Notes under the pieces: model-generated
Databases searched by the model: none
The model's input: only the letters and a program-made list of their open reading frames with translations
Told to the model about the DNA's origin: nothing
In this document: positions 39,801 through 45,590 of the stretch, piece after piece
How positions within the stretch are numbered: the stretch's first letter is position 1
How the letters are laid out: every line of letters starts with the position of its first letter
From: Anthopleura xanthogrammica
Lineage: Eukaryota; Cnidaria; Anthozoa; Actiniaria; Actiniidae
Length of the DNA: 64,000 nucleotides
Assembly (NCBI GenBank): GCA_964019055.1
Contig: OZ025211.1
Span: forward strand, 9,430,400-9,494,399
Direction of reading: 5' to 3'
Program-made: the position numbers and the translations under genes

Positions 39801-42800
39801 AGAAAATCTCGAACCACTTCAAGTTTTCTTGTAAAATCCCTGCTAATTTTCGATCTTTTCAATTTCAGTATTATTCATCTGTTTCGATTCTGTATTTCTA
39901 TTCTTCTCTATTATCGTCTCATTTTGTTCTCTTTTACGCTGACATTTGCATGATGGCTTTTACCAATCAGCAAAGACCACGTTGGCTTGAAGCTATATTG
40001 AAACTAGACATTCATTTTCACATTATGGTGGATCCATGGATGCTCCAAAGCCCAATCTTCACCGTTCATTTTACCCTGAATTTCTTACATGTATAATTCT
40101 CTTGTTTGTAGCTGCCATACTGATTCAAAGGTTTTATCGACATTCAAAGAGAGGGAGAGAGAAAGCGAGACAGAAGGTTATTCATGAAAAGCTTCAAGGT
40201 ATTTTCCACTTCGCAGTTTCTTGAGGTCATTGTATTTCTTTGAATTTAGTCATAAAGCGTTCTTTTTTGTGTGGATTATATAAGTATTTTTAACTAAGTC
40301 TTAAAATATCTATTCAGCATGGGTGTTTTCATCTGTTGATGGAAAACAATCCTTTACCGCAAATATATAATAATATACCAGCTAAATATTATTCATCTTT
40401 GCCTGCATTTTGACTTGAGGACCTTGAGGCACTTTTTTGTCTGGCGGGGTTTACGAGAGGGTAGCAAGTGGTTGACAAAGCGATCGAATAGTCTTTTTTT
40501 TAGCTTGGGCCTTATGGGTTTTTTTTTTCATTTCAGACCACGTGTCATTTCGTAGAGTATCATAATTTCTTTGTTTAACGGTTGCGCATGAGAAGACACA
40601 TGAATATGAATGCTTTTTATGGAGGGAGGAAAACTGGAGAAACTGGAGAAAACCCCTCGAAGTACAGAAGAAAACCAACAAGGAACTCTACTCGCATGTG
40701 ATATAGACAGCGCCTCATTTTCTTGAGAAGGATTATTTGTTTGATTCTCACTCATTTTAGATTAAAATAACTTATCTTCTTGAAGTTTGCAGAAACAGAA
40801 AAATTTTTTTGCAAAAAATGAAGCATATTCTGAATTGGCAAAACAGTGAATACGTTAATTCATTCGGTTCTTTAAACAAGAAACTTATAGTTTTTCCTGT
40901 TTTCGGTTTTCTTTTTGTAGAGAAAAACATACTACAAGAAATTCCCAAGTTTGTCGCATATAAAATACCTGTTGATATCAAGATCGAAGACGGAGACCGA
41001 CTACACGTCATAGAAAACCGTTCCTTGTGTAACGCAATAGGTATGCAACTATTTCCAAAAAAAAGTTGTCACGCGGTCGAGACCGTACCGTGACCGTAAC
41101 GACGCGTTGTAGAAAGCCATTTCAACGTTATGGCATCGAAAAACACTCTATCGCCAGCTCGGATATCCACACTTCTATAAACGATTATTTAAAATACCAC
41201 TGATATGCAGAAGTAATTGCGATAAGACCTATCGTAATTATTTTTATATATTATTTTTTCTTTTACTTACTCCTGCTTCAGGTAATGTACTGGTTGAGTT
41301 CTCTGGGAAAGTGATAACGTACTCGAAAAAATGCGTGGTAAGTCTTTATGGTTTATTATATATATGGCGCCCCTTCAATGTGACTCTGCAAAGGCCCTTT
41401 AAAATCATGAGAGGTGGTTAGTTTTAGAAGTAAATTTTACGACATTCGACTTAGAAACTTAGAAACTGAGTATTAATTGATGAACATTTTAGGAGCAAGA
41501 AAGGTTCCTCATCCTGTCGACCAACAGCTTGTTTATTGTCGGCGCCGAGAAAAAGGTATGCCAGTTCATTCGGATGTATTATAATATTGATTAATGATAT
41601 AATAATCCTATGTCAGTACAATCGTTTTTCATTTACTCACCTTTCTTCTGCAACTGACAAAGGCACGTATACATTGTCAATCCCTTTCCCAACTACGACT
41701 TCCCTGTTGCATTATCCAACTGAATTTACATCCAAGATTTCCTTCTCTACTTCTGTTCTTCTCTACTTCTGTTCTCTTCTCTGCTTCTCTGTTCTCTGCT
41801 TCTCTGTTCTTTCCTTCTGGCGTCCAAGTTATCTATCGCAGGGACATTCAGTTTAAAGATCCTCAACATGTTTGAAGAACCATGTGTATTTTATAAAACT
41901 CTCTAATCTTTTGTAGGTAGTTTATGGAATTCCACCGTACAAGCTCAAGAGAAAATTAAGAATGGACGACCTTAAAAGCGTATCAATAAGGTATAATTAG
42001 TATAAGTCTTGCACACATCCATACATTGCAATTCGTCAATTGCAAGGTGTATATACAGTTAAATGCGTGTGCTAATATATAATCTGAACACTTACTGACA
42101 TTACGATAGCCAGATTTCCTTAACATGATCAATTCATTGTTATTCTTTGTATTTCAGCCCTTACGAGGATCACTTTATGATTTTGCACGCACAAGAATAC
42201 GACACAATCTTAGAGACACCACATCTACCTGAGATTCTCCCTCGGTTGTCTGCAATCTATGAACTGGAAACCGATAACACTTTAGATATAAACGTTTTGG
42301 AAAGGTTAGTGCAATGTCAAATAACTCTTTCTTTTACTTTTTTAAAGTTTTAAAAGGCTCAATGGAAGAAATCATTATTACCAACCAATTAAAACTTGAT
42401 TTTCTTGTGAATGTTTTCCAGAACTGAAGCAAAAATGAAGGAAGGTACCATACGCCAAGTAATGTTCAATGAAACAGGCATATATAAGATTGTTCTTTCG
42501 TTGTCAATGAATAGTATAAATATCACTCCTTCGACTGGTGAGTGAAAAAGATGTACTAGTATCATAATAGTCCAGTAGCAGTAAAATTGCTACTTCACTA
42601 CCTCATGGAAATATTTTTCATTGCATTTATTCCAAGTTTATCCTTTTCCTCCTTCATCATCTTCCTCCTCTTCTTGCTTCTCTTTGTCTTTGTCTTCGTT
42701 TTCGTCTTGATATTGCTCTTGCTTCTCTTCTTCCTGTCCCCAGCTTCCTTTTTGGCTCCCTCTTCCTCTATTTTCTTCTTCCTCATTTCTCCTCCATGTC

Positions 42801-45590: not shown

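Follow-up and report, generated by a model that had tools for sequence, protein, structure and literature searches.

A probable class I-type myosin gene with a predicted ZU5 domain in its tail in the sea anemone Anthopleura xanthogrammica

Results

The locus and its gene model

The window, the whole stretch of 64,000 nucleotides that was analysed (Anthopleura xanthogrammica, GenBank assembly GCA_964019055.1, contig OZ025211.1, positions 9,430,400 to 9,494,399 of the forward strand), carries a myosin gene model of 34 exons, followed by a partial tandem copy of its 3′ part (Table 1). Exons were located from frame listings and splice signals and then joined into the model. Exon 3 was placed by hand, as were the ends of exons 2, 32 and 33, in the last two cases because the automatic scan covered only 150 bases beyond its anchors. 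The joined exons amount to 4419 nt, or 1473 codons including a single terminal stop, and encode a protein of 1472 aa. The 33 introns start with GT, or with GC after exons 3 and 14, and end with AG; the GC donor of exon 3 is backed by alignment with two related proteins, P0001 and P0005 (described below). The rebuilt model returned the coordinates, phases, 34-exon count and multiple-of-three length of the first-pass annotation, all of them correct. Pfam placed Myosin_head, two IQ motifs, Myosin_TH1 and ZU5 in that order; after ZU5 come a basic segment and, last, the proline-rich end.

Table 1. Position and evidence of the myosin gene features and of the partial tandem copy, in window coordinates.
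Feature	Position	Strand	Evidence
Whole coding span: motor, 2 IQ, TH1, ZU5, basic segment, proline-rich end	24872..45590	+	Model, Pfam
Motor-domain exons 1-23	24872..38397	+	Pfam Myosin_head residues 4-720, E 6.8e-227
Exon 3 (GC donor), part of the motor insertion with RDRASRCSTARL	29022..29091	+	Alignment
IQ motif 1 exon	39535..39655	+	Pfam IQ 737-757
IQ motif 2 exon, 29 codons, both ends phase 1	40112..40198	+	Model; Pfam gives 2 IQ stretches
Six TH1 exons, 576 nt in total, both ends phase 1	40921..42537	+	Pfam Myosin_TH1 818-965, E 4.1e-21
Exon 32: linker, then first ZU5 strands (GTFTSCGGEV)	42926..43194	+	Model, Pfam, alignment
Exon 33: remainder of ZU5 (until about 44171), linker, basic segment	43836..44363	+	Model, Pfam, profile
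Basic, weakly amphipathic segment KKKKGILKTIRSSFRHAFHSKKKK	44292..44363	+	Alignment; P0001 counterpart KKKGLFKTIKSTFGRAFGSKK
Exon 34: acidic/Ser-rich stretch, proline-rich C-terminus, TGA stop	44925..45590	+	Model, alignment
Poly(A)-signal-like hexamers 3′ of the stop, at 45632, 45639 and 45680	45632..45685	+	Hexamer scan
Partial tandem copy of the myosin 3′ part, without TH1 exons and ZU5 core	46782..48646	+	Alignment

Codon scores were computed for the tail exons, and the model frame ranked best in nine of nine. The last three exons scored +0.20, +0.17 and +0.02 bits per codon, each above all of 500 intron pieces of 269 nt (mean -0.42, maximum -0.04), and two TH1 exons, 41282-41337 (-0.11) and 42422-42537 (-0.03), were not clearly separated from the top intron pieces. 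A frame-shift or chance origin of the tail was ruled out by frame, codon score, Pfam matches and relatives. The basic segment carries a net charge of +5 per 18 residues. Its hydrophobic moment was attained by 380 of 5000 shuffles (313 of 5000 for the P0001 counterpart), so that its amphipathicity is suggestive only.

Two further features lie in introns of the myosin gene and on the same strand. An intronless open frame for a rhodopsin-type GPCR (26054-27175; 7tm_1, E 3.3e-18) is contained in intron 1, and a tRNA-Glu (CTC) was found at 29361-29434. Just 5′ of the gene, a galactose-3-O-sulfotransferase frame occupies 22209-23384 (+) (PF06990, E 8.3e-74).

Relatives

Head plus TH1 was used in a protein search in which 7990 candidates were scored and 120 listed. 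The window ZU5 (phmmer) matched two of these 120, P0001 (E 1.5e-45) and P0005 (E 1.8e-5; both E values for 120 sequences). The window TH1 matched 117, the three missed being P0001, P0005 and P0002, and among the 120 listed proteins and the window protein TH1 and ZU5 were found together only in the latter. Precomputed domain lists gave ZU5 in none of the 120 listed homologues. When scored with Pfam ZU5, for which the curated cut-off is 21 bits, P0005 passed at 23.2 bits and P0001 lay just below at 20.0 bits. Two database searches were made with the tail: residues 795-1250 gave no match at E 0.001 among 6159 candidates, and residues 1030-1190 none at E 10 among 187. Both were insensitive, since they missed P0001, otherwise a strong match.

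P0001 (1197 aa) is 74% identical to the window protein in the head and 50% in ZU5. It shares the basic segment (KKKGLFKTIKSTFGRAFGSKK, against KKKKGILKTIRSSFRHAFHSKKKK in the window), the acidic/Ser-rich stretch and the proline-rich end, but lacks TH1 and has a charged stretch in place of IQ2. P0005, an Oculina patagonica protein annotated as ‘unconventional myosin-If-like isoform X1’ (1024 aa), has head, IQ and ZU5 as in the window (head 52%, ZU5 19% identical), and is without TH1, a matching basic segment or a proline-rich end. P0002, a partial predicted protein of Nematostella vectensis (719 aa), has a head 72.5% identical to that of the window protein and ends after IQ1.

Head identities were taken from a single alignment of eight proteins and are identities only, with no rooted tree. 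Four Ie/If proteins (Chanos, Pecten, Rhopilema and Hydra) share 72-82% head identity with one another and 54-56% with the window protein. Their heads are 53-56% identical to the group formed by the window protein, P0001 and P0002, whose members share 72-74% among themselves, and the head of P0005 is 50-54% identical to all others in the alignment. Ordinary Ie is present in cnidarians as well (Rhopilema, Hydra). Because the window head stands at 54-56% to heads that share 72-82% mutually, the ZU5 myosins are taken as a branch apart from Ie/If and not as an Ie/If splice form. From these sequences they probably form a branch paralogous to the long-tailed Ie/If myosins, so far seen in probable cnidarians only.

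The first-pass annotation had proposed an alternative tail in which SH3 is swapped for ZU5. That part stands in which TH1, ZU5 and a proline-rich end occur without SH3 in one model. The part that makes it a tail of ordinary long-tailed myosin I does not, as the window protein has neither the C-terminal SH3 nor a motor that groups with Ie/If, and belongs with a separate paralogous branch. Likewise, the order TH1 then ZU5 holds in the window model, but TH1 is not constant in the branch, P0001 and P0005 being without it.

Motor and lever

GESGAGKT at residue 140, NNNSSRFGK at residue 193 and DIYGFE at residue 419 are present in the motor and are taken by us to be the P-loop, switch I and switch II; the residue at position 368, presumably the TEDS site, is Glu. 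This set of residues suggests a competent motor that would not need heavy-chain phosphorylation at the TEDS site. The motor is of class I kind: of 151 PDB matches, 60 of them displayed, the seven best carry the names myosin IE, myosin I, Myo1b or Myo1c. Wherever one of the 120 listed homologues bears a myosin class name it is Ie or If, the rest being unnamed or otherwise named. Nothing was found by Pfam N-terminal to the motor head.

At the ungapped alignment position that we take to be that of the class-1 lever proline, the window protein has Ser, P0001 Gln and P0005 Thr, and Pro is found in Nematostella P0002 and in the four Ie/If proteins; the proline thus appears to be replaced by Ser in the window. 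This proline is described as almost invariant in class-1 myosins (PMC5583752).

Exon 3 and the neighbouring exon 2 add about 45 residues to the motor as an insertion, the region measuring 53-55 residues in the window protein, P0001 and P0005 versus 8 in the four Ie/If proteins. RDRxSRCSTA is common to the three insertions, and SRCSTA was found in two of the 120 listed proteins, again P0001 and P0005. P0002 has 10 residues there and no insertion, perhaps through a missed exon. The basic-Ser motif RDRASRCSTARL within the insertion is possibly a phosphorylated loop.

TH1 and its optional use

TH1 was matched by PF06017 with 75.9 bits (cut-off 31.1; E 4.1e-21) and is 26-32% identical to the TH1 domains of the four Ie/If proteins. 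Three basic residues lie in its loop joining strands 1 and 2, as against six in each of those four, so that lipid binding may be weak. Joining 40198 directly to 42926, which skips TH1, keeps the frame open and yields the layout of P0001 and P0005.

It is rather unlikely, but the best placed of the alternatives, that the main product skips this cassette and runs from motor through IQ and ZU5 to the proline-rich end, with TH1 optional or fading. The cassette of 576 nt has phase 1 at both ends, both ZU5-bearing relatives lack TH1, the lipid loop is poorer in basic charge and the codon use of two TH1 exons is not clear of that of the top intron pieces, all of which agree with skipping. Six exons with frame, splice sites and a 75.9-bit Pfam match would nevertheless be hard to maintain unused; as frame and splice sites are retained, TH1 is expected in at least some transcripts. 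From the sequence, we think that TH1 is optional or being lost.

The ZU5 domain

Pfam ZU5 (PF00791) was matched at residues 1041-1116 with 31.4 bits (E 2.3e-7) in the whole protein, with 34.7 bits (E 2.2e-8) in the tail alone and with 36.1 bits in the domain alone, all above the curated cut-off. The ZU5-like domain that had been proposed for the tail from the letters of the DNA was thereby recovered by the HMM. The exactly reversed domain, used as a control, matched no Pfam family at E 0.01. Against PDB (phmmer) the window ZU5 alone gave weak matches, with ZO-1 best (E 0.027) and ankyrin-2 at E 0.19; four of the seven rows were ZU5 proteins and three were unrelated. A profile of three ZU5 tails, which includes the window’s own ZU5, matched ankyrin-1/2/3 and ZO-1 with E values from 1.2e-5 to 3.7e-4 (ZO-1 at 8.6e-5) and UNC5B at E 0.21, and nine of the 11 rows with E no higher than 10 were ZU5 proteins. 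An AlphaFold model of P0001 (5-row alignment) had a mean pLDDT of 34.5 and was unusable, so that the case for a ZU5 fold comes from sequence profiles. A Pfam scan of the window protein gave no SH3 at E up to 10, and no UPA, death or ankyrin-repeat domains.

Instead of docking a partner, ZU5 might act as a structural spacer, or fold back on the motor and inhibit it. There are parallels in UNC5, where ZU5 domains pack against their own neighbours, and in Acanthamoeba myosin IC, the SH3 of which is reported to contact a PH-like domain in its own tail. We hold such a role to be improbable, however, given that the lone-ZU5 fragment of ZO-1 acts as a ligand-binding module.

The junction between TH1 and ZU5

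The last TH1 exon (42422-42537) has the donor GTGAGT. Exon 32 has the acceptor aaaacaag and is entered in phase 1 by an in-frame join, and exons 33 and 34 continue the frame. Splice signals and phase 1 therefore agree with the in-frame join of the last TH1 exon to the exon at 42926 in the first-pass annotation. With a score of -2.4, the acceptor at 42926 is a weak one. Residues flanking the junction 43194/43836 align with the uninterrupted relative P0001, and those at 44363/44925 align more loosely. The junction 42537/42926 has no parallel, because both ZU5-bearing relatives are without TH1; on present sequences, this junction, and TH1 together with ZU5, appear to be known from the window gene alone. 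No poly(A) hexamer was found in introns 42538-42925 and 43195-43835. A single poly(A)-like hexamer at 44889, within intron 44364-44924, may allow a shorter form that lacks the proline-rich end.

Two adjacent genes could also be imagined here, namely a short-tailed myosin I ending after TH1 and a separate downstream ZU5/proline-rich gene. The myosin would then end by read-through into the intron, where two codons and then a stop lie just past 42537. That retention of this intron brings a stop within three codons fits this arrangement, as does the weak acceptor. It is very unlikely all the same: P0001 and P0005 are single proteins in which a head of like kind is followed by ZU5, P0001 carries the basic segment and the proline-rich end too, the 388-base intron is free of poly(A) hexamers, and the exon at 42926 has no initiating Met and joins in phase.

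The partial tandem copy

In order, the copy comprises the IQ2 exon (82.8% identity), with its flanking introns (86.8 and 82.9%), the pre-ZU5 intron (90.2%), the start of the ZU5-linker exon (first 22 bases, 72.7%), the proline-rich exon (coding part, 89.7%) and the 3′ flank (83.7%). Since this order repeats that of the gene, the exons for IQ, the ZU5 linker and the proline-rich end stood colinear before the duplication. Read on from the phase-1 copy of IQ2, the frame hits a stop after about 20 residues. As exons and introns have diverged to roughly the same extent and the frame stops early, the copy looks like a decaying fragment, and its use as an alternative ZU5-less last exon was rejected on the same grounds for that frame. 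One frame in phase 0 (48132-48560) runs open as far as a stop, and through it the copy might conceivably act as a ZU5-less last exon.

That the window holds an ordinary Ie/If gene whose 3′ end is chimaeric or mis-assembled is exceedingly improbable. Although the long-tailed subclass should have an SH3 and none is here, P0001 matches head, motor insertion and tail alike, the window head shares 54-55% identity with the Ie heads of Rhopilema and Hydra versus 72-82% within the four Ie/If proteins, and the downstream partial copy has the identical exon order.

An acidic, Ser/Lys-rich open frame of 301 residues on the reverse strand (49216-50121) gave no Pfam matches at E 0.1.

Discussion

The locus is probably an intact gene for a single-headed class I-type myosin with a ZU5 tail that would dock the motor on a membrane scaffold. 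Individual parts of this protein are found in known systems. What we take to be a lone ZU5 near the C-terminus without UPA is shared with ZO-1 (PDB 2kxr, 2kxs), a PDZ-SH3-GUK scaffold with no motor. The ankyrins, UNC5 and PIDD carry a ZU5-UPA supramodule; the window protein shares ZU5 homology with ankyrins and UNC5 but is without UPA, death and ankyrin-repeat domains. Long-tailed MYO1E and MYO1F resemble it in the class I-type motor, TH1 and a proline-rich tail segment and differ in the SH3 at their end. The general description of long-tailed myosin I gives one IQ (PMC7177449), versus two in the window. Class XXVIII myosins of Nematostella and some vertebrates offer, like the window gene, an unusual metazoan myosin tail in a sea anemone. 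Their tail is made up of IQ, a short coiled coil and SH2 (PMC2375034), and a class XXVIII identity for the window gene was rejected on account of that SH2.

In the mechanism we propose, the motor would pull on cortical actin through an IQ lever bound by calmodulin, and TH1 with the basic segment would provide weak attachment to acidic lipid. ZU5, as a putative beta-rich peptide-binding domain like that of ZO-1 or ankyrin, would replace SH3 and dock the motor on a junctional or spectrin-linked membrane scaffold, and the proline-rich end would recruit actin factors of SH3/EVH1/profilin type. The outcome would be a short-range tether that tensions the actin cortex against a particular membrane site. 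TH1 would be dispensable in such a motor, because ZU5 can specify the membrane site.

Cingulin is a ligand of a ZU5-containing ZO-1 fragment (Kd 7.7 nM) and connects that fragment to nonmuscle myosin-2B (PMC10202830). At podocyte junctions, it is the SH3 of MYO1E that contacts ZO-1 (PMC7177449). In view of these two contacts a target at a junction or scaffold is plausible, and the junctional or cytoskeletal partners suggested in the first-pass annotation are, by analogy, likewise plausible. The ZU5 of ankyrin has a spectrin-type target. On that analogy, a spectrin-type target for the window ZU5 is equally possible as a junctional one.

Among the papers listed in the open-access literature for ZU5 paired with myosin terms, none was found on a myosin with ZU5. 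The term ZU5 has no occurrence in the main text of the myosin surveys PMC5583752, PMC3942036 and PMC2375034. Within the same literature, the earlier remark that no myosin of this order has been described still holds. The kind of sequence is already in databases, since the Oculina protein is publicly annotated as myosin-If-like. What is new, as far as these searches go, is a class I-type motor with a ZU5 tail, seemingly never described as an architecture.

More tentatively, the ZU5 myosins may be an unrecognised cnidarian myosin I subclass in which a ZU5 on the motor itself replaced a contact with the membrane scaffold that vertebrate MYO1E makes in trans, by its SH3 with ZO-1. The window gene would then be an intermediate that has both TH1-bearing and TH1-less forms, and its relatives would have fixed the loss of TH1. 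If this possibility is true, the window gene makes a TH1-bearing, lipid-bound motor and also a TH1-less motor placed by ZU5 alone.

Where a myosin works is decided by its tail domains. A ZU5 carried on the motor would couple cortical tension directly to a junction or to an ankyrin-type scaffold, a connection that vertebrates make via separate proteins, with the ZU5 of ZO-1 bound to cingulin and myosin-2, and with the SH3 of MYO1E bound to ZO-1. The gene would thus offer a testable case, in early-branching animals, of a membrane motor that changes its address through a swap of terminal exons.
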